Shown here: positions 12,160 to 62,499 of the stretch, piece by piece | Numbering within the stretch: position 1 is the stretch's first letter | Layout: the number at the start of each line of letters is the position of its first letter | Assembly: GCF_042453785.1 (NCBI RefSeq) | Contig: NC_091669.1 | Coordinates: 32,009,001 to 32,073,000, forward strand | Reading direction: 5' to 3' | DNA: 64,000 nucleotides | Source: Malus domestica | Taxonomy: Eukaryota; Streptophyta; Magnoliopsida; Rosales; Rosaceae | Translations under genes and position numbers: made by a program | Notes under the pieces: model-generated | Told to the model about the DNA's origin: nothing | Database searches by the model: none | The model's input: the letters and a program-made list of their open reading frames with translations, nothing else

Positions 12160-12292
12160 AGGTGTTGAAAAGAGAAGAGGTCGGACAAATCAAGATCTTA
12201 GAAGTGCAAGAATGGAGCTTCTACTGGTGGATATTCAAGTGTGCTTTGGAACTTAATGTCAGCCCCTATAAAAATCTGCACTCGACGAAGCT

Positions 12293-19327: not shown

Positions 19328-19416
19328 AACAAGGGGCAAGTGGTCCTAACCTCATCAATGGCTAATATAACATCCAATCCAATAAGATACATCGTTTGAC
19401 GAAAAAAAAAGAAAAA
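19328..19416 (+). mobile_element. 5'-truncated SINE copy
   Basis: The sequence ..CAATGGCTAATATAACATCC..ACATCGTTTGACG followed by an A-rich tract matches the 3' half of the SINE at 2618-2734. The B box is missing. The same insertion is present in duplicate copy B near 25322-25408, so it predates the duplication. Confidence 0.65.
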
Positions 19417-19437
19417 AGTTAGGGCATGTTCAAGATG

Positions 19438-19518
19438 TATAGAACCTTGGATCTTCCGGAGGAGTTTTTTAGCTTTCTGCTCACATCCTTCACAGTTAAT
19501 GTATTTATCCATCCTCAT
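19438..19518 (-). pseudogene. HMA-domain exon fragment (HIPP-like), copy A
   Basis: The minus strand reads MRMDKYINCEGCEQKAKKLL.., the first half of a heavy-metal-associated domain with its metal-binding C-x-x-C. The matching second half of the domain and a CaaX end were not found nearby, so this is an exon remnant of a HIPP-type gene. A splice acceptor-like AACTAG precedes it. It resembles, but is not a copy of, the intact HIPP gene at 29491-30807. Confidence 0.6.
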
Positions 19519-24006: not shown

Positions 24007-25436
24007 AAAATAGTTCAACCAGGATCCCTCATTTCTCCGATGAAGGATGATACTCTCCACACGCCCCCTCAAGTGTGGCTGTTGGACTTCACATGAGGGA
24101 CAACCTTCTCTAATACTAGAACTTCAACTTTCTTCATGGTACCAGAATGGGTTTTCAGATCTGGCCCTAAGTTATTGGGTTCACTTACAAACATGATCGA
24201 TGTAGCTCCACGTTTGGCCAACTCCAAAGCAATCCGACGTGAGGGGGCAATGTTGAATAAAGCAAAAGGTCCCACATCGTTCTTCTTACAAAATAAATCA
24301 CAACTTTTATTAAATGGTTCTACTTTTAATTGTATGAAGGTCTTTTGCATAAAAACCTCACACCTATTGATTGCACAAATAATTAAATGATGACAATATT
24401 GATGCTATTAGCAGTGGACCGTAACCTGTCTCTCTCAAACTTTAATAGAGGCCAAGTCTCTGGATGTTTGCCAGCTTTCACCAGCGTTGTAATTGAAGTA
24501 GAAAACTGTTACATTTCCTATCATTGCGATCTTCTCTTCTTCTGCCTCTATGTTTACACTCTAAACACCTAAATTTACTTCAAAATTCAAAATGTGAGAT
24601 GGGCATTCTGATAAGTACACAATTAATGTTTATAACTAAAAAAGAATCTGATAAAATGTTTATGCTCCAGATGTGAGTAAGACGAATTGGCTAAGACAAC
24701 GTGATCGTTTATTTGCATTGAAGTTTGAATCCCACTTCCCATAACTTAAATTTATTCGGAATATCACCTTGTCACAAACCATGAAGTTAAAGATTCTAAC
24801 AAATTTGCACATACCGTACTCCATCTGCTAGGGCTGACTAAAGGCTTCCTATGTGCGTTTTCCCTCAAGTAGTTACTAACAGAAACATCCTTTTCCTAAA
24901 AGCAAGGGACTAGTCTCAATGGTTAAGAGTATTTAACTCTGTATCTGAGATCTAATATTTGATTGTTTCCCAATCCCCAATATAGTAGTATGATGGTAGA
25001 TTGCCTTGGTGGATATAACTTCTCTTCAAGACATTGTGTCTAAGGTTCAAACATTCCCCATTCTCATAATTTAAATAAATTAATATAAATTATCTTATCG
25101 TTTATGAAACAAACAAAAAAATTATTCTTTTCCACATTCTAAAGTCAGCTGAGATCTAATATGGGGGCTAGGGTTAGTTGGAAAACCATTATACACTTTA
25201 GAATCCCAAATGCCACCCAAACGAAGTGTTAGAAACCAACCAAGAAAACTGCTAGTTTGCAACAGTCATACAAACAAGGGAAAACACAAATACCAGTAAA
25301 ATCTATACCGAAAAACAAAAACAAGGGGCAGGTGGCCCTAATCCCATCGGTGGCTAATCTAATATTTAATCCAAGAAGATACATCGTTTAACGAAAAAAA
25401 AAAAAAAAACTAGGGCATGTTCAAGATATATAGAAC

Positions 25437-25509
25437 CTTGGATCTTCCGGAGGAGTTTTTTAGCTTTCTGCTCACATCCTTCACAGTTAATGTATATATC
25501 CATCCTCAT
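25437..25509 (-). pseudogene. HMA-domain exon fragment (HIPP-like), copy B
   Basis: Duplicate of the fragment at 19438-19518 with one visible residue change near its start (MRMDIYINCEGCE). The C-x-x-C is kept. The rest of the gene is not recognisable. Confidence 0.6.
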
Positions 25510-27219
25510 AATACACTAGTTGATTAAAGTTCATAATTTGTCAAAATGGATGGGGTACATAAAAAAGTGAGTGCTGAGTCCATGACCATTTTGGTCTGTT
25601 CATATTCAGTCATTCACTTCGTAGGAAGAAGTATTTAAAAAAAAAATCAAAATCAAGGAAGAAGTAAAACTCAAACCATTAGTCTTATTACATTGATCAA
25701 AACAAGGAGGAGAAAAGAATTATAAATTGCTAAGCCTACAACATCATGCAAAAAGATTACATTTTTGCCTTGGCAAAGTTACATGGTGAATGTATTAAGG
25801 TTTAAGTAATGCACGTAACGCAACTAATCTTCATTTTATGAACAAATTACAAGGTATACTTATAAAGACCTGATCATGAACAAATAAAAAACCAAACGTA
25901 AAAATTTTAAATACCGAAACATTCTAACATAAATTACACAAAAATTCTAATTTCCCAACATTTTGATTCAAAAGTCCGAAAAAAACAATACTTTAGAAAA
26001 ATTTACCGTTGAATTCTTTTTTATCTACTAGAATGCTGATTATCAGTGCCACTGAAAGAATTATGAGGTAAAAAGCTTAAAGATGCATAAAGTGGTTGGC
26101 AAGTACCAGGCAAGTACTTGGTTTGTGCCATCTCCTAATTTTTTTTTTTAAATCTCCACGGTACGAAGTAAATTTAATTAAAAACAAAAAAAAAGTTACA
26201 AAAGGGTCTTTCTTCATCATGATGAGTGAACCCCCAGTGCATATAATAGTTGGATGCATCAAATTAAAACCCTTTTATTAAATAGTAGAATATTATGAAA
26301 AGAAGGCAATTATTCATCCCCACTTTCATCCTAATCGAGTGCATAAAACTTTACTGGGGCCAAAAGAGAGTGGAGAACATATAGACCACAGTTGAGTTGG
26401 CCTAAAGCATTTGGAAATCGGAGATTCCGGCCTCTCAGAATTCACAAAAAATTAATTTCAGTACTGTGTGGTTATCAATTTTTAAAATTAATGCATGATT
26501 TTTGAGAATTATTAACTCTATTTTTTATTAGAAGTTTGTCATTTCCTCAGTTTTTAGTAGAAGTTTGTCATTTCCCGAATATATGGAATTTCACCTTCTG
26601 TTTTATCCACTTTAGGTCAAAGAAATTCCCCGATATACTGGCACAGAAAAGAAAACAAGAAGGAGATAAGTGGGCAAAAGAGAAAGTCAAATATGTAAAC
26701 TTATTGGTTAGGTTTAGGATTCCAAGGACATGATTAGTGGTGCTTATTATGATGCCAGTTTGATTGGTAAAGCAGGATCATGACATTGACTCCCCTCCCC
26801 AACAGGAACTGAGATGCTTTATGGAACATTATGTTCAAAGCCAACGGATTTGAAGATTCAAATCACTGATCACTCGTTTAAATTTCTGCGGCCTCTATTA
26901 GCAAATTTCATTGGTTTACTCACGTAAGATCAAAGATTCAGATCTCTCTTTTAAACAATTCAAATCTTTAAATCCATTGACATCCGACACAGAAATCTGG
27001 AAAATATCTCGATTCCGCTAACAGAAGCTTCAGTTCTTTTGTACTAATCTTCGTTTAAAATAATGAAAAGGTTTATTGTAAACAAATGGTGGTGCTCTTA
27101 TAATCATTCTCCCTTGCATTTGAATAAAACATATTGGAATGCTGTCTCCATTGTCTATTATTTTAATCATACTTAGCGGCGGGCGGCGTGCAACGAAGAT
27201 AAGCGAAACACCATGATAT

Positions 27220-30907: not shown

Positions 30908-31446
30908 ACGTATGAAACATTTCTGCTTAAAAGTGCTTTGGCCGAAAGCACTTTTTGTTAGATATGAACATCAACATTTTTAATAAAACCGAATGGATCA
31001 CTTTGGAAGTGCGCGTGGAGCCGCTTCTTGATAGACTAGTTAGTAGTTATATATTGAGGGAGTACTAATTTTTATAACTCAGGTAACACTTTGTTAGACT
31101 GAAAGTACTTATCGTATTCTAAAATAAAAAACTTTTGTTTTTCTTTTTTGATCAGGTGAGAGGGATTCCAACTTTAAACATCTTTCAATATTATGAATAA
31201 AAATACTCCTGAACCAATTATTTGTTCGTTAGTTTCCAAACGCTCTAGAGCTTCATTTTAGAATTGAGGAGCCTAACCTAAGGAGATGAGCAGGAAAAAG
31301 CAGTATCTAGCGAATATAAAGTCAAATTGTATAACATAGAGTGAAATGAAATGCCAAAAAGCATAACATGCTAAAAGTTATAAGAGGTCAACAATGCTTT
31401 TGGATGTAGATATGAGTTTAGTCAAGTTAACTAGAAGAAGATAAAA
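30908..31446. other. Upstream region of the HIPP gene
   Basis: AT-rich, without recognisable genes. It ends at the (ACA)n tail of the minus-strand RTE LINE. Confidence 0.5.
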
Positions 31447-32560
31447 ACTACAACAACAACAAAGTCTTTTCCCACTAAGTGGGGTCGGCTGTATGAATCC
31501 TAGAATGTCAATGCGCTCGGTTTTATGTCACGTCTTCCGTTAGATCTAAGTACTCTAAGTCTTTTCTTAGAGTCTCTTCCAAAGTCCTTCTAGGTCTTCA
31601 TCTACCCCTTTGGCCCTGAACCTCTGTCCCGTAATCGAATATTCTAACTAGAGCGTCAGTAGGCCTTCGTTTCACATGTCAAAACCACCGTAACCGAATT
31701 TCTCTTATCATTCCTTCGATTGTGGCTACTCCTACTTTACCTCGGATATCCTCATTCCTAATCTTATCCTTTTTCGTGTGCCCACACATCCAACGAAGTA
31801 TTCTCATCTCTGCTACACCCATTTTATGTATGTGTTGATGCTTCATCACCCAACATTTCGTGCCACAAAGCATTGCCAGCCTTATTGTCGTCCTATAAAA
31901 AATTTCCTTGAGCTTCAATGGCATACAACGGTCACACAACATGCCGGATGCACTCTTTCACTTCATCCATCCAACTTGTATTCTATGGTTAAGGTCTCTA
32001 TGCAACTCTCCGTTCTTTTGCAAGATAGATCCTAGGTAGTGTAAACGATCGCTTTTTGGTACTCCTTGATCTCTAATCCTCATCCCTAACTCATTTGAGC
32101 CTCCATTTGCGCTGAACTTGCACTCCATATACTTTGTCTTTGACTGACTTAGGCGAAGACCTTTAGATTCCAACACTTCTCTCCAAAGGTTAAGCTTCGC
32201 ATTTACTCATTCCTGAGTTTCATCTATCAACACTATATCGTCTATGAAAAGTATACACCAAAGAATATCATTTTGAATATGTCATGTTAATTCATCCATT
32301 ACCAATGCAAAAAGGTAAGGACTTAAAGATGAGCCTTGATGTAACCCTACAGTTATGGTGAAGCTTTCAGTTTGTCCTTCATGAGTTCTTACGACAATCC
32401 TTACTCCATCATACATATCTTTTATAGCTTGAATATATGCTACTTGTACTCTTTTCTTTTCTTAAATCCTCCAAAGAATGTCTCTTGGAACCCTATCATA
32501 CGCTTTTTCCAAATCTATAAAGACCATGTGCAAATCCTTTTTCATATCTCTATAGCTTTC
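31447..32560 (-). pseudogene. RTE LINE, 3' half (minus strand), split by a copia element
   Basis: Starts with (CAA)n, the complement of the RTE tail, then AAAGTCTTTTCCCACTAAGTGG. The minus strand encodes the C-terminal region ([21 protein letters not shown]) and the RT active-site box as FIDD in place of FADD near 32240-32252. Stops and frameshifts are frequent. The same element resumes at 37770, after the copia insertion. Confidence 0.92.
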
Positions 32561-40787: not shown

Positions 40788-43700
40788 CTAACTAGAATTA
40801 CCGTTTTCATTGGAAGCACGGTATATCTTCAGTTTTTGACCACGCAAACCATTCCAGAAGGCAGCTGCACTTATTGCCTTCTTACCCGGAATCTGAACCT
40901 CCAATACCTAAATACGTTGTCAAAAGCATACATTCAGTTTGAGAATTGACGGACCAAATGTATCATCCTATACATACCTTTTCCAATATGTATTTAGATT
41001 GAAGACAGTAAAATTAAATTAGACTCGCCAAATGAGGTGTTAGTACGCATCAGCATTTAATTTGTTAGAAAGAAAGAGAGGGACAAAGTGTGCGTAGCTT
41101 TGGAAAAATCTAGATTTGGTAAGTAAATACGAGGAGCGTAGCAATACGGTCAGTTAGATTGTTGATCCCATACTTGAATGTTAAGGGAGGGGGGAGGACT
41201 TAAAGGGGTATTGGGATAGAAGTTGTTCGATCATAATTTTGGCCAATGACTGCAGAAATAAAAGACAACAAATTTATAGCTCACATAGAAATAATGTCAG
41301 GAAATGAAAATGCATGAGCTCTGCGTTATAACCGCTAAGCTAGCAGTAGCAGCAAGACTAGACAATAACAGAAGCTGACAGAGACAGGAGGTACCTCAAG
41401 CGCTGTGCCCCGTCCACAGGGAAATACTAATGCAGGCTTTATAAAGCTGATTTCAACCGCTTGGTTGACCTGAACATTGCTCTGGCTGCAGACTTTAGTT
41501 GTCATAATTTTGAATTCCATGATATTCTCTTGACCAGTTTTGTTGTCAATAATTACAACTTTAGCTCGAGTTCCAGGCCACCCTGCAAATGCACGAACCT
41601 GTAGGGGTTGTGATTCATGACTCCGTTATCCAATATGAGGCAAAAGAAGAGAGCATACCTTATTATGTAGAACTGAAGCCTCCTGATCAAAGGACAGCCA
41701 CGATTCTTCCGGAGCAATCTATGCAAAACACAAATGAACTCAAAATTAAAATCAAAGGCAACCCTAGAAAACATATCTGGTCCCCATTGTGTCGTAGCAT
41801 AGAAGTCACTTCAACTGCAATGTCTACCTTGGGAGCTAAGGTAGCTTTAGAGTCATCCTGGGGACGTGCTTTCACCTTAGCTGACCCATCAAGTATAGAA
41901 GGAAGCTCGTTGATCAATAGTTTAGATCCTGCAAAGTATAACAGTAGGTTACATCAGTGAAGTGTAGTTGAACCAAAGCTGCACTAAATTGGTAAATATG
42001 GCTGCACTGGCGTAGATCCGACTAAAACCAATTCGCACAGGTAACTGCTCACAGAATATGTACAGAATAAAGACACATGAGAAAACAATATATGCCAAGG
42101 ACTAAACACCATGTTTCAGGAAGACTTAAGGAAATGTATAATGCTTAATGTCAAATAAGATTCTCAGCTGGATAGCTTAGTAATTTATATTCTGCCACTG
42201 AACTCTAAGCACCAATAGATTAGACTGCAGTATTAAACTAAAGTATAAGTAAGTTATAAACTATAATTAGCAAAACCGAAATTAAAACTATAGAACATAT
42301 CAGAAAAAGGGGGAGTAAAAGGAACAAAGCACACCTTCATTAAATAGTAGTGCAAGTAGATCCGGTGCCTGCATGAGAACCAGAATAAACATTTACTAAA
42401 AACAAATGCGTTGAAAATGGCAGCAACCCTGAAACTAGGCTCAATAGGGAAGATGATATTAGTCTTGAACTCGGCTTTAATACACCTAAAAGTTTCATAT
42501 TTCCCCAAAATATAAACTCAATTTATGGCCGCAAAAAATCTCCCTAACCAAAAGAAATGTTTCCAATGTACTCTCACTGTTACTATTGAAGTTTGCAACT
42601 ATGCGTGTGCATGGGTGTGCATCCACTCATATTGCACTCACTAAGATTAACCTTTTTCTTCCCTATTTGGTGGGGAAGTGCTATTAACTTGTAGGCCCCA
42701 AGATACACATGTACATACAAACCATCACATACCATGGACCTTGCACCTCAAGGATGTCAGATACTACTTGATCCAGACAAATTGTTACTGACTCGAACCC
42801 AGAAATAAAACAGCTCAGATGAACATCAAAACATCAACATCGTTACGCATGAAGATCAACTTTTTTTGCTCTTCTTTTTTACCAGGAATGTAGTTTACTT
42901 GTGGGTACATAGATGTACAGAACGTGTACATAAACCATTGTGTATTAAAAATCTTGTACATTTTTTATTTCTTTGATAGGAGAAGATGTTGTACCTAAGG
43001 CATGTTAGTTGCTAACTTACTACTTCATCGGTCCTAACAAATCATTACTGACTTTGACCCAAAAATAACACAGATGAGATGGGTCCTAAAACTTTTGCAT
43101 CCATAACTTCACTAGATAAGCATCATTCATACCTTAATTTGATCATCAATTTCCATTCTTTCACAGGCAATGACAGGCCCAGCATCCAGTGCACGAACAG
43201 TGAACGCTAAGGATACTCCTGTTTCATTAACACCATCCTAATTCAAACAAGAAAATGTAGAACTTCTTATTCAGATATAATAAATGTGAATATAAAACAC
43301 ATGCAATACTTTATAGCCTACGAGATAGGGAACATCAAAACCTAAAAACCTGCAAGGCTCTTTGAACAGGTGCAGCTCCACGATACAATGGAAGCAAACT
43401 TGGGTGTATATTGACCGTACCTGAGAAAATTGTCACTTTGGATTGAGAAATAATGCTACCAGCTGATTAGGTTTGAAGATAGCAATCTCAACTTTAGAAA
43501 TTCATTTATGCTCACTCAAGATATGCAACTTGCGAGTTCACATTGTGAATAAAAGATGCCGTATTAAAGTAAAAACAAGCATGGTGGAATTAAAGCATAC
43601 ACTGCAGTCAATAATCATTAACCATCTATTATGATCTTCAGACCACCAATTGTCTCGAAAAGGTTTAAAATGAATGCAGAAAAAAAATCTTGATCTGCTA

Positions 43701-45530
43701 ACCAAATTATTAGGAACAAAGTTCATCTGCCAACCTTCCTCCCCCTCAAAAGTTAACTTAAATATCCCAGGTACAGATACCAAATAATCTAATAAGTGTG
43801 CAATATCCCTTAAAAGGCAAGCTCTAAGAGCCAAGAAACATTTCGAGTTCAATTACTAGTCTCATGCCTCCATATAACTGATTTACCCTTGGTACATGAC
43901 TACTAGCTGGACAGGGCGTCTCATATTTGAAGCATTGAGAGGATTACCCAAATTGAAGGAATCAGAATGAGCAACTCTCATCCATCGTCTGGATTGCAAT
44001 GAGAATAAGGTTGGTTTCTGTTAAGATGTTTTTCGTTTCTTCTTAATTCTTTCTATTCTAAATAAATGTTGGAATGTGGACAAATGGCAACAATTCCCCA
44101 TTCCAAGTAACCGTGCTGAGATTATACCCATCTGATTCCAAAGTCAAATGCAGAAAAGTGCATGGAAAATTAATATGCAGCAGAGAACAAGAATTCACTT
44201 TTGTCAGGGAAATTCATTCGACTAACCCAATGTTGGGATATTGAGAAACTTGGTAGGTAAAATGTTCCCATAAGCAGCAGTGATGCAAAGTTGTGGCTGC
44301 AAAGCTCTTAAGTCGGACAAAAACACATCCTGCACGAACATTAATAAAAATGAACCCTCTTCATCTAAATTCACTCCTAAAACTATCAAAATCTTTGAGA
44401 GACAATAATCTAATGAGCACTGGGAATATATGGAAACCCATTTTAATCATATAGAGCAATAAGAAGCAGTATTGGGTTGTTTCTAATGCACATGACCTTT
44501 GGCATAAGAAAACCTAAAATGCAGCTCTACAGAAGGTGTAGTACCCGATATCGGAGATTTCTACAGATAACTCCATGGTGCTCATAAGCACATCTCTAGT
44601 CACTACATGGATTACCCGTAAGGAATAAATAAAGAAATCATTTCCTACAAAAATATGATAGAAAATTACCTCTCCAGCCCGTTCAGGTGTGAAAATAAGG
44701 TTTGAAGGGAAGCCTCTGTCAAGAGCATGCTGTGCTAAAGGAGAAGGCATCAACTTTTTCCCCCTAGACTTTCTGGATGGCGGCTGTGTAACAATAGCTG
44801 CAACCTAAATCAGAGCAAATTATTCATTCATAATCCAAGCAATGACTCTGTATTTTTACACTATATCAATAGCGAAAGTATGCATCACCATTTTTCCTGG
44901 CCTACGTCAGTCCCTACTATCTTCCACCCCCCCCCAAAAAAAAAGAGTAAATATGAAAACAAGTTTGACATAAAACTGATATGAAATATTAGTAAGCTCA
45001 TATGCAATAAGCCTAGGTTCGACAAGTTTGGCATAAAACTAATCCAATTGAACCTTTAAGATGCCTTATGATGCTGCAACACAAGAGAAAGCAATGACCG
45101 AAACACAACACAACCAGCTAAATGATAAGTCTACTGACTATCTAAATTCCACAGCACCAGAAATTAACCCCATTCACAATTCAATCCGGCACGAACGCTT
45201 CTTGGACATAATGTGCTTAATAGGCATGTAACATCACTAAACTATGTAACCCAATAAACCAAACTCAAAAACAATCAAATTGTGGAATTCTAATGGCATC
45301 ATAAAGTGAAGAAAACCCAAAATGAAAAAATGAAAAATAAAGAAGGAAGAAGCCAGAAAAGAAAACCCGTTTGAGGTAAAGTTGAAGGCATGGAGAAGGG
45401 CATCCATTGAATACCTCAAAGAGTGAGTCTGCGGCAGTGGATGCATTGAGAAGGGCATCCAGAACAGTTGATGACACCTTCAAAACCAGTAGACATTTCA
45501 TCACCTCATAACCACAAATGTATAAATATG

Positions 45531-45581
<51 letters not shown>

Positions 45582-45718
45582 GGCAGCACCTGAGGAGAGC
45601 CTAAGAAGACGAGGGGCTTCTTGTTGGAAGCGAAGCATAAGGTAGAAGAAGAAGAAGATGAAGATGAAGTTGCGGCACTGAAGCACCAGAAGCGACGAAA
45701 CACCAGCGACGAATTCAT
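40788..45718 (-). CDS. Methionyl-tRNA formyltransferase, organellar
   Basis: Eleven exons fit with GT-AG borders: 45590-45718, 45415-45477, 44670-44804, 44227-44329, 43350-43420, 43133-43237, 42335-42368, 41828-41928, 41659-41718, 41395-41598 and 40788-40907. They give 374 codons with no stop. The enzyme transfers a formyl group from 10-formyl-tetrahydrofolate to the initiator Met-tRNA of plastids and mitochondria. Residues 1-30 are rich in Ser, Arg and Phe, a transit-peptide profile. KPLVFLGSPQ opens the formyltransferase fold. The signature SLLPLYRGAAP is at 151-161. Asn147, His149 and Asp185 sit where the bacterial catalytic Asn-His-Asp triad is expected. The C-terminal domain (VRAFAGWPGTRA, then PAL..GRGTALE) is complete. 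The gene looks functional; its 5' part is duplicated at 48874-50366. Confidence 0.96.
45531..45578. repeat. (TA)n(GA)n microsatellite in formyltransferase intron 1
   Basis: A run of TATATA followed by GAGAGA lies just inside the donor side of intron 1. The duplicate at about 50167-50225 carries the same compound repeat, with a longer GA part. Confidence 0.95.
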
Positions 45719-45950
45719 GCTCACAATTTCACTTGCCTCCTCGTACAAACCTACCAACTGAGAGAGCTTTGGGACTATATGTACATCTGCTTATCCGCTT
45801 CTTGCAATTCTAACTTGGGCTTATTTTCTTTTGTGCCCGATTCTCTCCCCTCCTCTTTCTCTCCCCTCCTGTGCCCTCCCTTCATCCACAGCCGTCCAAA
45901 ACATTTACAAGTCGATCAAAACACAAGATTGTGCCACGTAAGAAACAAAC

Positions 45951-46296
45951 GAGGCGCTGAAATAAGATAGTCCACGAAGGCGCCATCAACCACGGTGCTG
46001 CCGAGGCCCAATACGATGAGGTCGAACCAGTGGAGCCTCTTCTGCATGTGGGAGCCGGAGCGAGCTCGGACGGCGCTCATTTCGTCATCGGAGACGGAAT
46101 TGGCCTGGTGACCGAGGCGGGAAGGTATGTGAGCCATGGATCGGAGGTAGGCCTCGATGCTTGAGAAAGAGGACAAGAAGCTATTTCGACACTGACTGGA
46201 TTGATTGCAGCCATGGCATCAGTGATGGAGGCAAATGTTGGAGACGACGGGGGGAGAGAAGTAGAGGGGAATATAATTGGGGTTGTAGGAGGTTGC
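45951..46296 (-). pseudogene. Cationic amino-acid transporter N-terminal fragment
   Basis: The minus strand reads SSIEAYLRSMAHIPSRL, DEMSAVRARSGSHMQKRLHW and FDLIVLGLGSTVVDGAFV. This matches the cytosolic N-terminus and first membrane segment start of plant CAT-type transporters, where the usual reading is near L..W.DLV..G.G..VGAGVFV. Nothing downstream of that segment remains. The equivalent place in the duplicated copy (about 50700-50720) lacks the whole block, so it was either captured here or deleted there. It sits upstream of the formyltransferase start. Confidence 0.6.
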
Positions 46297-47251
46297 ATAG
46301 CTTTTACCCATTGGATCTGGTTTGAATGGTCCCGATTATAAGGAGGGAGATAGGAGGGAGAGAATCCGAGTCTTCTCAAGCTCCATTTTAATGTTCTCTT
46401 TTTTTATCGAACGTTATTTTACTTATAAGAGGCCATCTACGGAAAAGAGGTTGAATTAGGCCACATAATAGCGATATTTAAAATATAATACATTTGTGTT
46501 ATCTTAAAACTCTATTTTATTTAAGTTGAAATTTCGATCTCTGATTTAAGGAGAGTTTTGGTAACCCTTATATTATTTACTTAATTTGATGTAGAAATAG
46601 GTTAAGGGATTTGTCTAAATACGAGTGTGCCACTATTCGGCACTAGAAACCAATCAAGTAATTGTGCTCCAATGAATGAATTAACTTAATTTTATCTTTT
46701 CAATGCCTCTAGTGAATGAGGACTTGACAATTCAACTAGATTTAGAGGGTAATTTGGTAAAAAAAAATAATTCAAGTGGCTATATGAAACAAAATATGTT
46801 CAGGTGATAATTTGACACGAAATAGTGATGACAATGATTCAGACATAACTCAAATTTTAGAGTAAATCTTAATGGTTTTGACGGTAGGTGGTATTTATGC
46901 AAACAAGTTTAGTTTAGGTGGCAAATATCACAAAACAAAATTTCAGTGGTCGAGTAGAACACTGTCTAAATTCAAGTGGTATTGCTAAAATTTTCCTTCC
47001 TCTTTTTTGAAGCAAGCCTAACATCACTTTATCTTTATGGCACTGCAAACTGGACATAGAAAACTATGGGACTGCAAACATGTGTGTGATTTCATTAGAA
47101 GTACAACTAGATGAGAACCCGAAAGAGAAATAGAACATATATAATACTGAGAAACACACACCATAATACCAGCATTTATACAATATAACATGACATAGTT
47201 TGCAAGTTCGACAGATTGAAACAGTAAAGAGAAAGAACGAGGACGATATAC

Positions 47252-48045
47252 TTAGCGCTTTTGTGCTTTTCTCCGTCTAGATTGTACTTTTTGCCATTTC
47301 TTTCTAGCAACTAGTTTGCTCTTTGGTTTCAACTTCAACTCAGGTGAGAACTTATAATTAGGATCTCTCATACGCGTTTGTATATCCTTGAAAAACTGCA
47401 TATTCAGTTTCTTAGGCCCTCCCTGTCTAAGCTCTGCATATTCCGGCCCTGATACTATATTTTCAAATGCTCCTACCAAAATATCCAAGTCACTCATGAC
47501 CTCCCACACGTTAATATAACGCCCGTCTGGCCCTTTCTTCAACTTTTTCAAGGCATTCTCAACTGCAATTTTCCTAGCTTGCTTTCCAGGGGACAACTCC
47601 TCTGGTTCCTGCTCAGCTTTCAATAATTCAGAAATTGTCCGATACTTTGATGTTTCTTCAAACTCAAATAGTTTGTCTATATGTTTATCACTACTTTCAT
47701 TTGGGTAGGCTTCAATAGGAATATCGTCGTCGTCATCATCTTCACTCCCAGTCCACAGAGACTTCTCCTCGTCGCTTCCAGACCAAACACTTCTCAACTC
47801 ATCACTATCATCGGCATCAATTAGGTCAGAGTGCTCCCTCGCCTGTTGTCTTACTTTTCGAATCTCTTTTTCAAGACGACTCTTTTCATCCTTTTCATTG
47901 TCACTTTCGTCTTCACTACCTGTCCATAAAGTATCATCTTCATCAATCTCCTTCTTCCAGGCTTCCCTGAATTCCTTGTCACCAGGTTTTCCATTTCCAA
48001 AGAGATCATAAGGTTTATGACCACCACGAGCATATGATCGTGACG
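47252..48045 (-). CDS. Unknown acidic/basic protein, exon 2, copy 1 (intact)
   Basis: One exon of 794 nt encodes the last 263 residues plus two bases of a split codon. The acceptor TTGCAG is good and there is no internal stop. I do not recognise the family. Visible features are a SRSYARGGHKPYD start, an acidic half with a twice-used word (LWTGSEDES and LWTGSEDDDDDD), a central region KYRTISELLKAEQEPEELSPG, NVWEVMSDLDIL, and a strongly basic end (SRRRKAQKR). Its own exon 1, seen upstream of copies 4 and 5, is missing. The nearest upstream same-strand exons are those of the truncated formyltransferase copy (48874-50366), and the splice phase matches. It is the only one of five copies with an undamaged frame. 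Confidence 0.85.
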
Positions 48046-48873
48046 CTGCAACAGTTCGAAACAGTCATACAGGGCACAAGTACAAAAGTCAAAGGGAAAA
48101 TGCACGTCTATTTATACACCTTTTTCTGCAAATCTGAACTTGCAAGGAAACCTATTTTATATAGAATGCATCATATTATGTAACATGTATATTAGTTTAC
48201 AGAGCAACATACTTGGCTTGAACTGCTAACCAAATTATTAGCATACACTGCAGTAAATAATCATTAACCATCTATTATGATCTTCAGACCACCAATTATC
48301 TCGAAAAGGTTTTAAATGAATGCAGAAAAAAAATCTTGATCTGCTAACCAAATTATTAGGAACAAAGTTCATCTGCCAACCTTCCTCCCCCTCAAAAGTT
48401 AAACTTAAATATCCCAGGTACAGATACTGAATAATCTAATAAGTGTGCAATATCCCTTAAAAGGCAAGCTCTAAGAGCCAAGAAACATTTCGAGTTCAAT
48501 TACTAGTCTCATGCCTCCATATCACTGATTTACCCTTGGTACATGACTACTAGCTGGATAGGGCGTCTCATATTTGAAGCATTGAGAGGATTACCCAAAT
48601 TGAAGGAATCAGAATGAGCAACTCTCATCGATCGTCTGGATTGCAATGAGAATAAGGTTGGTTTCTGTTAAGATGTTTTTCGTTTCTTCTTAATTCTTTC
48701 TATTCTAAATAAACGTTGGAATGAGGACAAATGGCAACAATTCCCCATTCCAAGTAACCGTGCTGAGATTATACCCATCTGATTCCAAAGTCAAATGCAG
48801 AAAAGTGCATGGAAAATTAATATGCAGCAGAGAACAAGAATTCACTTTCGCCAGGGAAATTCATTCGACTAAC

Positions 48874-50164
48874 CCAATGTTGGGATATTGAGAAACTTGG
48901 TAGGTAAAATGTTCCCATAAGCAGCAGTGATGCAAAGTTGTGGCTGCAAAGCTCTTAAGTCGGACAAAAACACATCCTGCACAAACATTAATAAAAATGA
49001 ACCCTCTTCATCTAAATTCACTCCTAACACTATCAAAATCTTTGAGAGACAATAATCTAATGAACACTGGGAATATATGGAAACCCATTTTGCAGCACTA
49101 TTGGGTTATTTCTAATGTGCATGACCTTCGGCATAAGAAAACCTAAATTGCAGCTCCACAGAAGGTGTGGCACCCAATATCAGAGATTTCTACCGATAAC
49201 TCCATGGTGCTCATAAGCACATCTCTAGCCACTACATGGATTACTCATAAGGAATAAATAGAGAAATCATTTCCTACAAAAAGATGATAGAAAATTACCT
49301 CTCCAGCCCGTTCAGGTGTGAAAATAAGGTTTGAAGGGAAGCCTCTGTCAAGAGCATGCTGTGCTAAAGGAGAAGGCATCAACTTTTTCCCCCTAGACTT
49401 TCTGGATGGGGGCTGAGTAACAATAGCTGCAATCTAAATCAGAGCAAATTATTCATTCATAATCCAAGCAATGACTCTGTATTTTTACACTATATCAATA
49501 GCGAAAGTATGCATCACCAATTTTCCTGGCCTACGTCAGTCCCTACTATCTTCCCCCCAAAAAAAGAGTAAATACGAAAACAAGTTTGACATAAAACCAA
49601 TATAAAATATTAGTAAGCTCATATGCAATAAGCCTAGGTTCGACTAGTTTGGCATAAAACTAATCCAATTGAACCTTTAAGATGTCGCAACACAAGAGAA
49701 AGCAATGACCGAAACACAACACAACACAACCAGCTAAATGATAAGTCTACTGACTGTCTAAATTCCACAACACCAGAAATTAACCCCATTCACAATTCAA
49801 TCCGGCACGAACGCTTCTTGGACATCATGTGCTTAAAAGGCATTTCACATCACTAAATTATGTAACCCAATAAACCAGACTAAAAAACAATCAAATTGTG
49901 GAATTCTAATGGCATCATAAAGTGAAGAAAACCCAAAATTAAAAATTGAAAACACATAAAAAAATTTAAAAAAAAAAGAAAGAAGAAGAAGCCAGAAAAG
50001 AAAACCCATTTGAGGTAAAGTTGAAAGCATGGAGAAGGGCATCCATTGAATACCTCAAAGAGTGAGTCTGCGGCAGTGGATGCATTGAGAAGGGCATCCA
50101 GAACAGTTGCTAACACCTTCAAAACCAGTAGACATTTCATCACCTCATAACCACAAATGTATAA

Positions 50165-50228
<64 letters not shown>

Positions 50229-50366
50229 CAGCACCTGAGGAAAGCCTAAGAAGACGAGGGGCTTCTTGTTGGAAGCGAAGCATAAAGTAGAAGAAGAAGA
50301 AGAAGATGATGATGAAGTTGCGGCACTGAAGCACCAGAAGCGACGAAACACCAGCGACGAATTCAT
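48874..50366 (-). CDS. Truncated formyltransferase copy, exons 1-4
   Basis: Exons 50235-50366, 50054-50116, 49299-49433 and 48874-48976 repeat the first four exons of the gene at 40788-45718, all with intact frame and borders. They encode 144 codons plus one base. Differences include one extra Ser in the serine run and LGFPQ for LGSPQ. Exons 5-11, which hold the catalytic Asn-His-Asp and the SLLP signature, are absent, so no formyltransferase can be made. The transit-peptide-like N-terminus is kept. The fourth exon ends in phase 1, the phase needed by the exon at 47252-48045 on the same strand. Confidence 0.92.
50167..50225. repeat. (TA)n(GA)n microsatellite, duplicated copy
   Basis: Counterpart of 45531-45578, with a longer GA run, in intron 1 of the truncated formyltransferase copy. 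Confidence 0.95.
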
Positions 50367-51009
50367 GCTCACAATTTCACTTGCCTCCTCGTACAAACTT
50401 TGGGACTGTGTACCACTGCTTATACGCTTCTTGCAATTCTACTTCTGCCTATTTTCTTAGGAGACTAATCAAATTTTAAGTTTTAACGATAAAAGTATGG
50501 TAAATAATATTAAAATTATTTTTTTAATGTAAATATATTATTTTTTTATTAAAATAAATAATACAAAAGAGTTTTTCGCTAAAGTTTATTTTTCTTTTGT
50601 GCTCTTAATCTCATGCCCGATTCTCTGCCCCTCATTTCATCCACAGCCGTCCAAAACATTTACAAGTCGATCAAAACACAAGATTGTGCCACGTAAGAAA
50701 CAAAGGGAGGGATAGCTCTTACCCATTGGATCTGGTTTGAATGGTCCCGATTATAAGGAGAGTGCACAAAGGGAGGGAGATGAGAGGGGAGAGAATCAGA
50801 TTCTCTTAAACTCCATTTTAATGTTCTCTTTTTTTATCAACCGTTATTTTACTTATAAGAGATCAACTACGGAAAAGAGATTGAATTAGGTCACATAATA
50901 GCGATATTTTACGTATAATACATTTGTGTCATCTTAAACTTTATTTTATTTGAGTTGAAATTTAGACCTTTGACCTTCAACCGTAGAAGGAGAATTTTGG
51001 TAACCCTTA

Positions 51010-51584: not shown

Positions 51585-52297
51585 TTAATTTGATGTAGAA
51601 ATAGGTTAAGGGATTTGTCTAAATATGAGTGTGCCAATATTAGGCACTAGAAAGTGAACAATTTGCTCCTTAAAGAATAGTAACACTGACTTCCAGTCAA
51701 GTAATTGTGCTCTAAGAAATGAATTAACTTAATTTTATCTTTTCAATGCCTCGAATGAATGAGGACATGACAATTCAACTAGATTTAGAGGGTAGTTTGG
51801 GAAAAAAAAACATTTCAACTGGCTATGAAACAAAAAAAAATAGTTCATGTGATAATTTGACACGAAATAGTGATGACAATGATTTAGACATAACTCGTAT
51901 TTTAGAGTAAATCTTAGCGGTTTTGACGGTAAGTGGTATTTATGCAAACAAGTTTAGTTTAGGTGGCAAATGTCACAAAACAAAATTTAAGTGGTCAAGT
52001 ATAACACTATGTAAAATTCAAGTGGTATTGCTAAAATTTTCCTTCCTCTATTTCAAAGCAAGCCTAACATCACTTTATCTTTATGGCACTGCAAACTTGA
52101 CAAAGAATACTATGGGACTGCAAACATGTGTTTGATCTCATTAGAAATACAATTGGACGAGAATTCGAAAGAGAAGTAGAACATATATAGAACTGAGAAA
52201 CACACACCATAATACCAACAGTTTTACAATATAACATGTTACAGTTTGCAAGTTTGGCATATTGAAACAGTAAAGAGGAAGAATGAGGAGGATACAC

Positions 52298-53076
52298 TTA
52301 GCGCTTTTGTGCTTTCCTCAGTCTAGATTGTACCTTCTGCCATTTTTTTCTAGCAACTAGTTTGCTCTTTGGTTTCAACTTCAACTCAGGTGAGAACTTA
52401 TAATTTGGATCTCTCATACGCGTTTGTATATCCTTGAAAAACTACGACCCTCCCTGTCTAAGCTCTGCATATTTCGGCCTTGAAACTATATTTTCAAATG
52501 CTCCTATCAGAATATCCAAGTCACTTATGACCTCCCACACGTTAATATATTGCCCATCTGACCCCTTCTTCAACTTTTTCAAGGCATTCTCAACTGCAAT
52601 TTTCCTAGCTTGCTTTTCAGGGGACAACTCCTCATGTTCCTGCTCAGCTTTCAATAATTCAAAAATTGTCCGATACTTGGATGGTTCTTCAAACTCAAAC
52701 AATTTGTCTATATGTTTATTGCTACTTTCATTTGGGTAGGCTTCAGTAGGAATATCGTCGTCATCATCATCTTCACTCCCAGTCCACAGAGACTTCTCCT
52801 CGTCGCTTCCAAACCAAACACATCTCAACTCATCACTATCATCGGCATCAATCAGGTCAGAATGCTCCTTCCCCTGCTGTCTTACTTTTCGAATCTCTTT
52901 TTCAAGACGACTCTTTTCATCCTTTTCATTGTCACTTTCATCTTCACTCCCTGTCCATAAAGTATCATCTTCATCAATCTCTTTTTTCCAGGCTTTCCTG
53001 AATTCCTTATCACCAGGTTTTCCATTTCCAAAAAGATCATAAGGTTTATGACCACCACAAGCATATGATCGTGAAG
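52298..53076 (-). pseudogene. Unknown gene, copy 2, broken
   Basis: Copy of 47252-48045. An indel near 52442 creates an in-frame stop after GGS. The splice acceptor reads TTGCAT in place of TTGCAG. The C-terminal third is still recognisable after the stop. No exon 1 lies upstream. Confidence 0.88.
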
Positions 53077-53307
53077 ATGCAACAATACAATACAGTCATA
53101 CAAGTAGCACAAATACAAAAGTTAGAGTGAATGTATGTGTTACAAAGCTCTATCTATATACATTTTTTCTGCAAATTTGAACTTGCAAGGAAATCTATTT
53201 TATATAGAATGCATAATATTATGTAACATGTATCTAAGTTTACAGAGCAACATCACATATTTGGCTCGAACTGCGACTACAAACTTGTCATTTTATCTGG
53301 GCCATAG

Positions 53308-53398
53308 AATTCACACAGAACGCAGTAGCGTTCTAGGATTCATACAACTGACCCCACCTATTGAGATAAGGCTTGATTGTTGTTGTTGTTGTTGTTGT
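53308..53398 (+). mobile_element. RTE LINE 3' tail, short insertion
   Basis: GTTCTAGGATTCATACAACTGACC.. then AAGGCTTGA and (TTG)n. This is the same conserved 3' terminus as at 15215-15280. It is shared with copy 3 (about 55060-55130) but absent at the equivalent place behind copies 4 and 5 (about 56745 and 61830). Confidence 0.82.
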
Positions 53399-54017
53399 TC
53401 AATTCTAAAACAACTCAAATTCAATCAAGAAATGCACATAATCATACTCAATATAAAAATGCCACATAACAGGACACAATAGAATTTCATAATATCGCTT
53501 ATGCACTTTCTCGTGGTTGTTTCCTTGTTTTCGAAAACAGAATGAGTCCTCATTCCCCAGGCTAAAGGTTTCAATGACATAACGAAATAGTGATGACAAT
53601 GATTAAGACATAACTCGTATTTTAGAGTAAATCTTAGCGGTTTTGACGGTGGGTGGTATTTATGAAAACAAGTTTAGTTTAGGTGGCAAATGTCACAAAA
53701 CAAAATTTAAGTTGTCAAATATAACACTGTGTAAAATTCAAGTGCTATTGCTAAAATTTTCCTTCCTCTTTTTTGAAGCAAGCCTAACATCATTTTATCT
53801 TTATGGAACTGCAAACTTGACATATAAAACTATGGGACTACAAACATGTGTGTGATCTCATTAGAAGTACGACCAGATGAGAACCCGAAAGAGAAGTAGA
53901 ACATATATAGTACTAAGAAACACACAACATAATACCAGCATTTATACAATATAACATGTTATAGTTTGCAAGTTCGACAGATTGAAACAGTAAAGAGGAA
54001 GAACGAGGAGGATACAC

Positions 54018-54814
54018 TTAGCGCTTTTGTGCTCTCCTCCGTCTAGATTGTACTTTCTGCCATTTATTTCTAGCAACTAGTTTGCTCTTTGGTTTCAACT
54101 TCAACTCAGGTAAGAACTTATAATTAGGATCTTTCATACACGTTTGTATATCCTTGAAAAACTGCATATTTAGTTTCTTAGGCCATCCCTGTCTAAGCTC
54201 TGCATATTCCGGCCCTGAAACTATATTTTCAAATGCTCCTATCAAAATATCCAAGTCACTCATGACCTCCCACACGTTAATATATCGCCCATCTGGCCCT
54301 TTCTTCAACTTTTTCATGACATTCTCAACTGCAATTTTCCTAGCTTGTTTTCCAGGGGACAACTCCTCCGGTTCCTGCTCAGCTTTTAATAATTTAGAAA
54401 TTGTCCGATACTTAAATGTTTTTTCAAACTCAAACAGTTTGCCTATATGTTTATCACTACTTTCATTTGGGTAGGCTTCAGTAGGAATATTGTCATCATC
54501 ATCATCATCTTCATTCCTAGTCCATAGAAACTTCTCTTCGTCACTTCCAAACCAAACACTTCTCAACTCATCACTATTATTGGCGTCAATCAGTTCAGAG
54601 TGCTCCCTCGCCTGCTATCTTACTTTTCAAATCTCTTTTTCAAGACGACTCTTTTCATCCTTTTCATTGTCACTTTCATCTTCACTCCTTGTCCATAAAG
54701 TATCATCTTCATCAATCTCTTTCTTCCAGGCTTCCCTGAATTCCTTACCACCAGGTTTTCCATTTCTAAAGAGATTATAAGGTTTATGACCACCACGGGC
54801 ATATGATCGTGAAG
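54018..54814 (-). pseudogene. Unknown gene, copy 3, broken
   Basis: Two stops lie close together in the acidic half (at about 54616 and 54631; TGA and TAG in the KEIRKVRQQ region), and the splice acceptor reads TTGCAA. The part after the stops is open to the normal basic C-terminus. No exon 1 lies upstream. Confidence 0.88.
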
Positions 54815-55059
54815 TTGCAATAGTACAATACAGTCATACAGGTAGCACAAGTACAAAAGTCAGAGCGAATGTCTGTATTACAAAGCTTTATCTATGTAAC
54901 TTTTTTTCTTCCGCAAATTTGAACTTGCAAGGAAATCTATTTTATATAGAATGCATAATATTATGTAACATGTATCTAAGTTTACAGAGCAACATCACAT
55001 ACTTGGCTCAAACTGCGACTACAAACTCGTCATTTTATCTAGGGCATAGAATTCACACA

Positions 55060-55130
55060 GAACGCAGTGGCGTTCTAGGATTCATACAGCCGACCCTACC
55101 TATTGGGATAAGGCTTAATTGTTGTAGTTC
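55060..55130 (+). mobile_element. RTE LINE 3' tail, duplicated copy with shortened TTG tract
   Basis: Same insertion as 53308-53398, carried along by the duplication of copies 2 and 3. The (TTG)n tract is nearly gone (TTGTTGTAG). Confidence 0.78.
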
Positions 55131-55743
55131 AATTCTAAAACAATTCAAATTCAATCAAGAAACACACATAATCATACTCACTATAAAAACACCACATAAC
55201 AGGAAATAGTGGAAGTTCGGAATATCGCTTATGCACTTTCAAGTGGTTGTTTCCTTGTTGTCGAAACAAAATGAATCCTCGTTTCACAGGCTAAAGGTTT
55301 CAATGACAGAACGAAATAGCGATGCTATGATTCAGACATAACTCATATTTTAGAGTAAATCTTAGCGATTTTGATGGTAGGTGGTATTTATGCAAACAAG
55401 TATAGTTTAGGTGGCAAATGTCACAAAACAAAATTTAAGTGGTCAAGTATAACACTGTAAAATTCAAGTGGTATTGCTAAAATTTTCCTTCCTCTTTTTT
55501 GAAGCAAGCCTAATATCACTTTATCTTTATGGCACTGCAAACTTGACATAGAAAACTATGGGACTGCACACAAGTGTGTGATCTCATTAGAAGTACAACT
55601 GGAAGAGAACCTGAAAGAGAAGTATAACATATATAGTACTGAGAAACACACACCATAATACCAACATTTATACAATATAACATGCTATAGTTTACAAGTT
55701 CGACAGATTGAAATAGTAAAGAGGAAGAACGGGGAAGATACAC

Positions 55744-57300
55744 TTAGCGTTTTTGTGCTTTCGTCCATCTAGATTGTACTTTCTGCCCTTTCTTTCTAGC
55801 AAACAGTTTTCTCTTTGGTTTCAACTTCAACTCAGGTGAGAACTTATAATTTTGATCTCTCCTATGTGTTTGTATATCCTTGAAAAAACTGCATATTCGG
55901 CTTCTTAGGCCCTCTTTGTCTAAGCTCTGCATATTCCAACCTTGATACTATATTTTCAAATGCTTATATCAGAATATCCAAGTCACTCATGACTTCTCAC
56001 ACGTTAATATAACATATGTTTGGCCCTTCAACTTTTTCAAGGCATTCTCAACTGCTATTTTCCTAGCTTGCTTTCCAGGGGACAACTCCTCTGGTTCCTG
56101 CTCAGGTTTCAATAATTTGGAAATTGTCCAATACTTTGATGTTTCTTCAAACTCAAACAGTTTGTCTATAGGTTTATCACTACTTTCATTTGGGTAGGCT
56201 TCAGTAGCAATATCCTCTTCATCATCATCTTCACTTCCAGTCCACAAAGACTTCTCATCATCGATTCTAGACCCAACACTTCTCAACTCATCACTATCAT
56301 TGGCATCAATCAGGTCAGAGTGCTCCCTCGCTTGCTGTTTTACTTTTCGAATCTCTTTTTTCAAGATGATTCTTTTCATTATTTTCATTGTCACTTTCGT
56401 CTTCACTCCTTGTCCATAAAGTATCATCTTCATCAATCTCTTTCTTCCAGGTTTCCCTGAATTCCTTGTCACCAGGTTTTCTATTTCTAAAGAGATTTTA
56501 AGGTTTATGACCACTACGAGCATATGATCGTGAAGCTGCAACAGTTCGATACAGTCATAGAGATAGCACAAGTAAAATAAGTCAGAGGGAAAATGCACGT
56601 CTATTTATACCATTTTTTCCGCAAATCTGAACCAGCAAGGAAACCTATTCTATATAGAATGCATCATATTGTGTAATATGTATATAAGTTTACAGAGCAA
56701 CATCAGATACTTGGCACGAACTGCGGGTACAAACTCGTCATTTTATCCCGTGATAGTTAAATTTCTAAAACAATTCTAACTCAATCAAGAAAGGCACATA
56801 ATCATACTCAAATCTAAAAACATCATAGAACAGGACACAAGGAAGTTAGGAATATTGCTCATGCATATTTCTCAACGTCGTTTCCCTGTTCTCGACAGTG
56901 GAATTAAACCTCATTCCGCAGGCTCAAGGTTTTTCACAATGACAAACATGTCAATGAAACTAGTAATCTCAAGTTGAAAAATGTGCAGACAGACAGACCA
57001 AAAAGCCCACTGAAAGACCAATCTTCCATTCTGTGGGGCATTTTATCGAGCACGTAGATTGCATATCATAACTCCAATGACATAAACACAAACATACATA
57101 TGATTGATTAATTAATTGTAAAATTTGAAAAATTGAAGCGTAGGAAACCAACCTTGAAAATTTGGAGAAAACCCATAAGAGAAAATCAGAGTTGTTGAAG
57201 TAGTTACAGAAGATGCAGAATCAGACACGTTTTGCAAGGTGAAAAAGGATGAGGAGAGAGAAATAGGGATTAGGGTTTTTGCAAACACAAGAAAGGAGGG
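55744..57300 (-). pseudogene. Unknown gene, copy 4, with exon 1, broken
   Basis: Exon 2 is at 55744-56535 with an intact acceptor. It is broken by an extra base in an A-run near 56363 and by a 4-bp loss near 56026, which ends the frame as GQTYVILTC. Exon 1 ends at 57153 (donor GTTGGT). It encodes FAKTLIPISLS.. through SPNFQ in the right phase, but no start codon lies in frame. Confidence 0.85.
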
Positions 57301-57626
57301 AAGGGCAGGAAAAGCCTCCGACCCATCCTATTGTATTATATCACGATCATCTTCTACGCCTTTTAGGGTTTTGTTTACTCATCATCAAGGTGGGAGCACT
57401 TTTCCTTCATTTCTCTTTAAATTATAATTTGGCATTGTCTATTAATTTTTAGTTGTATTTTTCACATACGATAATATTTACATTTAAAAAATGAATTTGA
57501 ATCAACTTTGCCATCTACTAAAATAAATTGGTTAGTATAACTTAGGTAAAATGTTATTTAAGCGGGGAATAAATTTAAATGATATTTACACTATGAGAAT
57601 AACAAGTTTTTAAATGTTATCTATGC

Positions 57627-59877: not shown

Positions 59878-60823
59878 TAAGGAGGGAGAGAATCCGAGCC
59901 TTCTCAAACTCCATTTTAATGTTTTCTTTTTTGATCCAACGTTGTTTTACTTATAAGAGACCATTTACAGAAAAGAGATTGAATTAGGTTGCATAATAAC
60001 GATAATTTACGTATAATACATTTGTGTTATCTTAAAACTTTATTTTATTTGAGTCGAAATTTAGATCTCTTGACTTAAGGAGAGTTTTGGTAACCCTTAT
60101 GTTATTTACTTAATTTGATGTAGAAATAGACTAAGGGATTTGTCTAAATACGGGTGTGCCACTATTAGGCACTAGAAAGTGAATGATTTGCTCCTTAAAG
60201 AATAGTAACACTGACTTCCAATCAAGTAATCGTGCTCTAAGGAATGAATTAAATTAATTTTATCTTTTCAACGCCTCAAGTGAATGAGGACTTGACAATT
60301 CAACTAGATTTAGAGGGTAATTTGGCAAAAAAAAAAAAAAAAACATTTCAAGTTGCTATATGATACAAAAAAAAGTTCAGGTGATAATTTGACATGAAAT
60401 AGTGATGACAATGATTCAGATATAACTCATATTGTAGAGTAAATCTTAACGGTTTTGACGGTAGGTGGTATTTATGCAAACAAGTTCAGTTTAGGTGGCA
60501 AATGTCACAAAACAAAATTTAAGTGGTCATGTATAACACTATGTAAAATTCAAGTGGTATTGCTAAAATTTTCCTTCCTCTTTTTTGAAGCAAGCCTAAC
60601 ATCACTTTATGGCAATGCAAACTTGACATAGAAAACTATGGGACTGCAAACATGTGTGTGATCTCATTAGAAGTACAACTCGACGAGAACCCAAAAGAGA
60701 AGTAGAACATATATAGTACTGAGAAACACACACCATAATACCAGCATTTATACAATATAACATGTTATAGTTTGCAAGTTTGACAGATTGAAACAATAAA
60801 GAGGAAGAACGAGGAGGATACAC

Positions 60824-61617
60824 TTAGCGCTTTTGTGCTTTCCTCCGTCTAGATTGTACTTTCTGCCCTTTCTTTCTAGCAACTAGTTTGCTCTTTGGTT
60901 TCAACTTCAACTCAGGTGAGAACTTATAATTTGGATCTCTCATATGCGTTTGTATATTCTTGAAAAACTGCATATTCAGTTTCTTAGGCCCTCCCTGTCT
61001 AAGCTCTGCATATTCCGGCCCTAATACTATATTTTCAAACGATTCTATCAGAATATCCAAGTCACTCATGACCTCCCACACGTTAATATAACGCCTGTTT
61101 GGCCATTTTTCAACTTTTTCAAGGCATTCTCAACTGCAATTTTCCTAGCTTGCTTTCCAAGGGACAACTCGTCCGGTTCCTGCTTAGCTTTCAATAATTC
61201 GGAAACTGTTCGATACTGTGATGTTTCTTCAAACTTAAACAGTTTGTCTATATGTTTATCACTACTTTCATTTGGGTAGGCTTCAGTAGGAATATCGTCG
61301 TCGTCATCATCTTCACTCCTAATCCACAGAGACTTCTCCTCGTCATTTCCAGACCAAACACTTCTTAACTCATCACTATCATCGGCATCAATCAGGTCAG
61401 AGTGCTCATTCGCCTGCTATCTTACTTTTTGAATCTCTTTTTTCAAGACAACTCTTTTCATCCTTTTCATTGTTACTTTTGTCTTCACTACTTGTCCATA
61501 AAGTATCATCTGCATCAATCCTTTTCTTCTGGACTTCCCTGAATTCCTTGTCACCAGGTTTTCCATTTCCAAAAAGATCATAAGGTTTATGACCACCATG
61601 AGCATATGATCGTGAAG
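60824..61617 (-). pseudogene. Unknown gene, copy 5, exon 2, broken
   Basis: A 1-bp loss near 61110 shifts the frame before NVWEVMSDLD. An extra base in an A-run near 61440 and a TAG near 61426 break the acidic half. The acceptor TTGCAG is intact. The C-terminal 85 residues remain open and end in SRRRKAQKR. Confidence 0.88.
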
Positions 61618-62309: not shown

Positions 62310-62499
62310 CTTGAAAATTTGAAGAAAACCCAAAGGTGCAAATTGGAGTTGCTAAAGGGGTTATAGAAGATGCAGAATCTGACAGGTTTTGCAAGGTGAA
62401 AGAGGAGGAGGAGAGAGAGAGAGAAATGGGGATTAGGGTTTTTGCAAATACAAGAAAGGAGGGAAAGGCGAGAACATAGCCTCCGAGCCATCGTATCAT
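62310..62499 (-). CDS. Unknown gene, copy 5, exon 1
   Basis: 63 codons plus one base, ending at a GTTGGT donor, in the phase needed by exon 2. The frame starts at an ATG (62497-62499) and is rich in Ser, Leu and Phe (LVFAKTLIPISLSLSSSS), which would suit an organelle presequence. This is inference. A second ATG in another frame (MARRLCSRLSLLS) looks even more like a mitochondrial presequence, so a small indel in the GA-rich part may have shifted the frame. The exon is part of a pseudogene. Confidence 0.6.

Follow-up and report, generated by a model that had tools for sequence, protein, structure and literature searches.

Can a gene fusion made by duplication inherit the function of one of its parents while the native versions of that parent decay? 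The question is raised by a cluster of gene copies on the minus strand of a Malus domestica window (C9:32009001-32073000, the whole stretch of 64,000 nucleotides analysed here), where the first four exons of a truncated methionyl-tRNA formyltransferase (MTF) gene, MTF-B, stand ahead of one of five copies of the main exon of an unrelated gene, X. Within ~22 kb, the cluster holds all the stages of such a history: a full host gene, a truncated host copy, a templated scar, a fusion that appears constrained and four dead parents.

Architecture of the Cluster

Read 5′ to 3′ along the minus strand, the order is X copy 5, copy 4, copy 3, copy 2, MTF-B exons 1-4, X copy 1 and MTF-A. Copies 5 and 4 of X comprise an exon 1 and the main exon, and copies 3, 2 and 1 the main exon only. 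MTF-A (40788-45718, minus strand) is a full-length methionyl-tRNA formyltransferase gene of 11 exons, the 374-aa product of which carries both Formyl_trans_N and Formyl_trans_C and has bacterial methionyl-tRNA formyltransferases as its best solved relatives. It is the one full MTF gene found in this assembly. The rest is the truncated MTF-B and, on C15 and C17, scraps of two MTF exons, namely exon 1 (present twice, in tandem) and exon 10 (L032 4056-4291, C15:49112055-49112290; L030 8950-9048, C17:30598949-30599047). These scraps are probably decayed copies, and C15 and C17, considered as a homoeologous outgroup, were of little use for polarising changes as they hold pieces of those two exons only.

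Some other features lie around the cluster. Upstream of MTF-A, ~345 bases at 45950-46296 are absent from the matching place upstream of MTF-B; by eye, the protein fragment that they encode resembles the N-terminus of a cationic amino acid transporter, a candidate that was set aside as there was no Pfam match. Elsewhere in the window, 18552-20824 and 24546-26810 are two direct copies of ~2.27 kb (95.6% identical). Moreover, a stretch of 5.2 kb (10133-15286), probably a mobile element, recurs with 95% identity and in opposite orientation at L033 4283-9431, a copy that begins ~4.3 kb beyond the window end, and related pieces are found at 31443-32560.

Anatomy of the Predicted MTF-X Chimera

The MTF half of the predicted gene consists of four minus-strand exons. 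Exon 1 (50235-50366, 132 bases) carries the start codon and a putative transit peptide and ends in phase 0, as do exon 2 (50054-50116, 63 bases) and exon 3 (49299-49433, 135 bases); exon 4 (48874-48976, 103 bases) ends in phase 1, at a GTTAGT donor as in exon 4 of MTF-A. The following intron of 828 bases (48046-48873, minus strand) is a hybrid, its 5′ part being MTF intron 4 with the MTF donor and its 3′ part X intron 1 with the X acceptor. The main exon of X copy 1 (47252-48045, minus strand, 794 bases) is intact from its acceptor (TTGCAG) to its TAA stop, bears the marks of purifying selection described below, and requires one base from the upstream exon, matching phase 1 of MTF-B exon 4. 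Spliced together, MTF-B exons 1-4 and the X exon give 408 codons without a stop (409 counting the stop codon), and all the splice sites for this frame are present in the sequence. The exon ends, the phases (0, 0, 0, 1) and the open frame agree with the initial annotation, which had also proposed that copy 1 lost its native exon 1 and that the MTF start was kept, as the exon anatomy and a DNA search with X exon 1 confirm. Such a phase match is a 1-in-3 outcome by chance, so that the open frame alone is weak evidence.

The fusion took away two splice sites, the MTF exon 5 acceptor and the X exon 1 donor. With MTF-B lacking the former acceptor and X copy 1 lacking its exon 1, the natural splice would run from MTF-B exon 4 to the X exon. 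Exon 4 is the sole one of the four to end in phase 1, the others ending in phase 0, so the X frame is kept only by splicing from exon 4; skipping of exons 2 and 3 would leave it unchanged. The 408-residue product would comprise a presumed organelle transit peptide, about half of the formyltransferase N-domain and the complete X main exon. Basic, acid-free N-termini are a frequent trait of organelle transit peptides, and the first 50 residues of the chimera include four basic and zero acidic ones, the first acidic residue coming no earlier than position 51.

The first 144 residues of the chimera derive from the MTF gene. MTF-B shows four amino-acid differences from MTF-A, among them S41F (MTF-A numbering), at a position where MTF-A has S and the three solved bacterial enzymes shown have T; before residue 41 the chimera departs from MTF-A by silent changes and one extra serine, and by nothing else. 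In the Pfam comparison the chimera matches Formyl_trans_N only, over profile positions 9-101 of 181 (31.2 bits, cut-off 26.1), whereas MTF-A carries the complete Formyl_trans_N and Formyl_trans_C domains. Exon 5, the source of the NIHPSLLP stretch in MTF-A, is likewise missing from MTF-B; this stretch is part of the formyltransferase active site. Owing to the partial Formyl_trans_N, the missing exon 5 and S41F, the chimera is, judging from its sequence, not expected to act as a methionyl-tRNA formyltransferase. When MTF-A and MTF-B are compared, changes fall at 8/430 exon and 64/1658 noncoding sites (p 0.052), a difference to which MTF-A, itself presumably constrained, may contribute; with those four amino-acid differences, the comparison with MTF-A gave no clear constraint of their own on the MTF-B exons.

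As regards the cargo, X is presumably an organelle protein. Two candidate identities were rejected on their Pfam scores, NBAS_11th (15.8 bits, below the cut-off of 27) and RemA-like (12.2 bits, below the cut-off of 26), and two matches of the C-terminal 145 residues to DHFR-TS (E 0.63 and 0.74) were taken as chance. No solved relative of X was found at E up to 1.

Decay of the Other X Copies

All the remaining copies of the X exon, on the minus strand as well, are damaged. Copy 2 (52298-53076) has lost the acceptor AG (TTGCAT) and carries a 15-bp deletion and a TAG; copy 3 (54018-54814), where the acceptor AG is gone through a different change (TTGCAA), carries a 3-bp insertion, a TGA and a TAG. 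Neither has an exon 1 of its own, and both are limited to the main exon, the DNA downstream of it and the 3′ part of intron 1. The acceptor was kept in copy 4 (55744-56535), which shows frameshifts of +1, −4 and +1 and three stops, and in copy 5 (60824-61617), with frameshifts of +1 and −1 and a TAG. Copies 2-4 form a tandem array (window 51862-56747) with a period of ~1.72 kb. In copy 1 there are zero disabling changes, and each of copies 2-5 carries stops plus a lost acceptor or frameshifts, so that comparison of stops, indels and acceptors finds four of the five broken and bears out the earlier claim that copy 1 alone is intact. With these disabling changes and a ratio of nonsynonymous to synonymous changes compatible with neutrality, copies 2-5 qualify as pseudogenes.

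A protein search of the whole assembly (651,096,769 bases in 19 contigs; E up to 1; the best candidates alone were scored, 13/13) located the X exon in five copies (9 matched stretches), all in the cluster. A DNA search with exon 1 of copy 5 returned that of copy 5 itself, that of copy 4 and, on C11, a match of 47 bases. With the exon protein search and the exon 1 DNA search, an intact native X was not found in this assembly. Within the 9.9 kb beyond the window there is one weak X match (30% identity; E 0.016 in a search against four stretches), which sits in repeated DNA and was left out of the copy count.

The two surviving first exons, on the minus strand, differ from each other by indels. 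In that of copy 5 (62310-62499), the frame fitting exon 2 stays open from its ATG at 62499, and a start at 62491 belongs to another frame; in that of copy 4 (57153-57326), the fitting frame has no ATG, and the frame of the ATG at 57326 soon stops. These exons bear on the idea that copy 1 is expressed with a first exon other than that of MTF-B, either from a new start in the hybrid intron or by long-range splicing from exon 1 of copy 4 or 5. Selection on the X exon is silent on which 5′ exon serves it, and the open frame in exon 1 of copy 5 would fit. We nevertheless judge such an arrangement decidedly unlikely: the earliest ATG in the X part comes only at residue 184 of 264, so that an upstream start is needed, the copy 4 exon offers none in the fitting frame, and splicing from copy 5 or 4 must bypass their main exons, with their intact acceptors, and the MTF-B exons as well.

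Selection on X Copy 1

Changes private to single copies were counted in gap-free columns (775 exon and 601 noncoding), leaving out columns gapped in any copy and those lying >430 columns past the exon, a region in which the DNA of copies 3 and 4 is different. Copy 1 holds 2 nonsynonymous, 6 synonymous and 16 noncoding private changes and 0 stops, and copies 2-5 together 79 nonsynonymous, 25 synonymous and 68 noncoding changes and 6 stops. The ratio of nonsynonymous changes plus stops to synonymous changes is thus 2:6 in copy 1 versus 85:25 in copies 2-5 (Fisher p 0.004), and that of copy 1 also departs from the neutral expectation (binomial p 0.003). Private changes occur at 8/775 exon versus 16/601 noncoding sites in copy 1 (p 0.036), and at 110/3100 versus 68/2404 in copies 2-5 (p 0.14).

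These data bear on whether copy 1 is a neutral relic that stayed open by chance. The absence of a new stop would by itself be no surprise, as 10% of simulated neutral branches had none. However, simulation at the noncoding rate of copy 1 predicts 21.2 nonsynonymous changes, 6.9 synonymous changes and 2.2 stops, so that amino-acid changes are about tenfold too few whereas the silent ones fit the noncoding rate. None of 20,000 simulated branches had two or fewer nonsynonymous changes plus stops, a result that already contradicts a neutral relic, to which we give next to no credence.

Codon models lead in the same direction. On the best of 15 topologies, omega was 0.08 for copy 1 and 0.76 for the other branches, with neutrality of copy 1 rejected (2ΔlnL 12.97, p 0.0003); on the second-best topology the omega of copy 1 was 0.10. 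In a free-ratio control, the copy 1 tip had an omega of 0.09 (2ΔlnL 11.0 against omega 1), and the other tips 0.62 for copy 2 (2ΔlnL 0.99), 0.66 for copy 3 (1.00), 0.93 for copy 4 (0.04) and 1.95 for copy 5 (2.06), so that copy 1 alone among the five tips rejects an omega of 1. According to the initial annotation, the idea of a retained fusion would fall if copy 1 evolved as neutrally as copies 2-5; put to that test, it survived, both in the private changes (2:6 vs 85:25) and in the tips (0.09 vs 0.62-1.95). The low omega of the internal branches of the X tree (0.13) suggests that constraint acted on the X lineage already before its copies separated; afterwards it is seen in copy 1 alone. The test compares the five X copies of one assembly and covers the whole copy 1 branch, the start of which coincides with the fusion only if the junction arose in the duplication itself.

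The Junction and the Timing of the Fusion

The initial annotation had described a join between intron 4 of MTF-B and intron 1 of X. The two partners are right, but 13 filler bases (48239-48227) that belong to neither lie between the MTF- and X-derived edges. Together with the flanking overlaps, they make up a junction (48223-48241, minus strand) that is an exact 19-base copy of 48359-48341, a template that lies 118 bases farther upstream in this intron. Fillers of this templated sort are a typical mark of polymerase-theta-type end joining, and from its sequence this one reads as the kind left by error-prone break repair. Such a filler, of biological type, also counts against an assembly artefact in which a normal X was mis-joined or lost. 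Assemblies can go wrong in repeat arrays such as this cluster, but the copies here are individually diverged and not identical collapsed ones, which makes this reading very improbable.

The proposed mechanism starts with a segment running from X intron 1 through intergenic DNA to MTF intron 4, which would have been duplicated head to tail as a consequence of error-prone break repair; at the junction, MTF-B exons 1-4 would end up ahead of X copy 1. As expected of a chimeric gene born by tandem duplication, both parents are identifiable as head-to-tail neighbours of the junction, the breakpoints lie within both genes and the frame is open across the join. The tandem duplication origin put forward initially holds as far as the parents adjoin the junction head to tail, but the uneven divergence of its parts speaks against one clean event. 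Noncoding divergence in the body of MTF-A/MTF-B is 64/1658, compared with 56/847 between X copy 1 and copy 5, its closest sister (Fisher p 0.003), and 92/853 between copy 1 and copy 2, the neighbour of MTF-B. The intergenic unit between X copy 1 and MTF-A (46297-46570, minus strand) has a second version at 50712-51009, with copy 2 and MTF-B on either side, and a partial one at 59884-60099, after copy 5. Between the intergenic DNA linked to MTF-B and its partner, 39/278 sites differ. This figure is inflated by a faster MTF-B side: when three sequences were compared over 223 sites, their private changes numbered 11, 26 and 12, and 26 of the 49 fell on that side. Unless gene conversion took place, the closeness of MTF-A and MTF-B relative to the X copies would make the fusion younger than part of the copy 1 branch.

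The divergence is also uneven within the MTF region, the alignment of which spans 50458/45830 to 48240/43594. A promoter stretch differs at 3/77 sites; from 5′ to 3′, the noncoding figures are 11/92 immediately before the start, then 49/911 and 15/747 in the 5′ and 3′ parts (p 0.0005 for these two). This pattern looks like gene conversion, and an MTF body less diverged than the X copies and the intergenic DNA points, as far as sequence comparison goes, either to gene conversion that affected the MTF body at a later time or to events in a more complex order.

A late fusion would be such an order. X and MTF would have been duplicated whole, copy 1 keeping its own exon 1 and working for most of its branch, until a deletion reaching from intron 4 of MTF-B into intron 1 of X joined the two; the selection would then be mostly pre-fusion, and the chimera may be functional or may be a gene just starting to die. 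An MTF-A/B body divergence below that of X copy 1 agrees with this course, and a filler may stem from either a deletion or a duplication. On the other hand, two events are needed instead of one, and neither a leftover of MTF-B exons 5-11 (MTF protein search) nor an exon 1 beside copy 1 (exon 1 search) was found. Moreover, the intergenic DNA linked to MTF-B makes the unit look old, with its MTF body homogenised later. We regard a late fusion as possible but doubtful. Because an old unit with a partly homogenised MTF body fits somewhat better than a late origin of MTF-B, we prefer a fusion at the birth of copy 1 over a later deletion.

Proposed Takeover of X by the Chimera

Taken as a whole, the explanation that we hold to be probable is that a duplication-born MTF-X chimera took over the function of X and that native X is dead. 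Following a fusion at the birth of copy 1, the remaining X copies would have decayed, and given their decay the function of X in this genome would be carried by the chimera, with the start, the promoter and the presumed transit peptide of MTF. We infer that it is transcribed, spliced and imported into an organelle, that the events took the order given here and that selection acted after the fusion, which would make it a functional chimera with a new promoter and transit peptide, as initially proposed. With somewhat less confidence, we lean towards a complete transfer of X, in which all native-start copies are dead in the lineage and the plant depends on the fusion. If true, address and promoter would have been exchanged naturally, and the loss of the parent would still be readable in four adjacent pseudogenes. 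Should transcripts confirm the chimera, it becomes testable whether an ancestral function can pass to a fusion and whether swapping the address altered where the protein goes.

Relation to Known Systems

A literature search joining methionyl-tRNA formyltransferase and Malus gave no match, and no report of an MTF-X fusion appears among the matches listed by title. Chimeras from tandem duplication are usually viewed as young extras beside working parents, and the takeover of a dying parent is the unusual part of the MTF-X case. Three systems can be compared with it. MTF-X belongs with the chimeric genes that arise by tandem duplication, which in Drosophila yakuba makes chimeric structures and shuffles regulatory elements (PMC5460883); that work is an expression survey in a population sample, whereas in the present cluster one parent exon is broken in four of its five copies and the fused copy alone is constrained. 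A survey of Oryza, likewise dealing with plant gene fusions, reports strong purifying selection signals in 90% of gene pairs (PMC9199173), but there the fused genes are treated as new genes, and here the fusion appears to replace a parent. By analogy, the proposed MTF-X chimera would work like grass rps14 riding on the nuclear sdh2 gene, where rps14 is expressed and targeted to the organelle by the peptide of an unrelated host gene, with the old copy left as a pseudogene (PMC1543663). In the grasses, the cargo is of mitochondrial-genome origin and makes use of alternative splicing of its host; in the Malus cluster the two parents are neighbouring nuclear genes, and MTF-A exists as a separate, full copy of the host gene.
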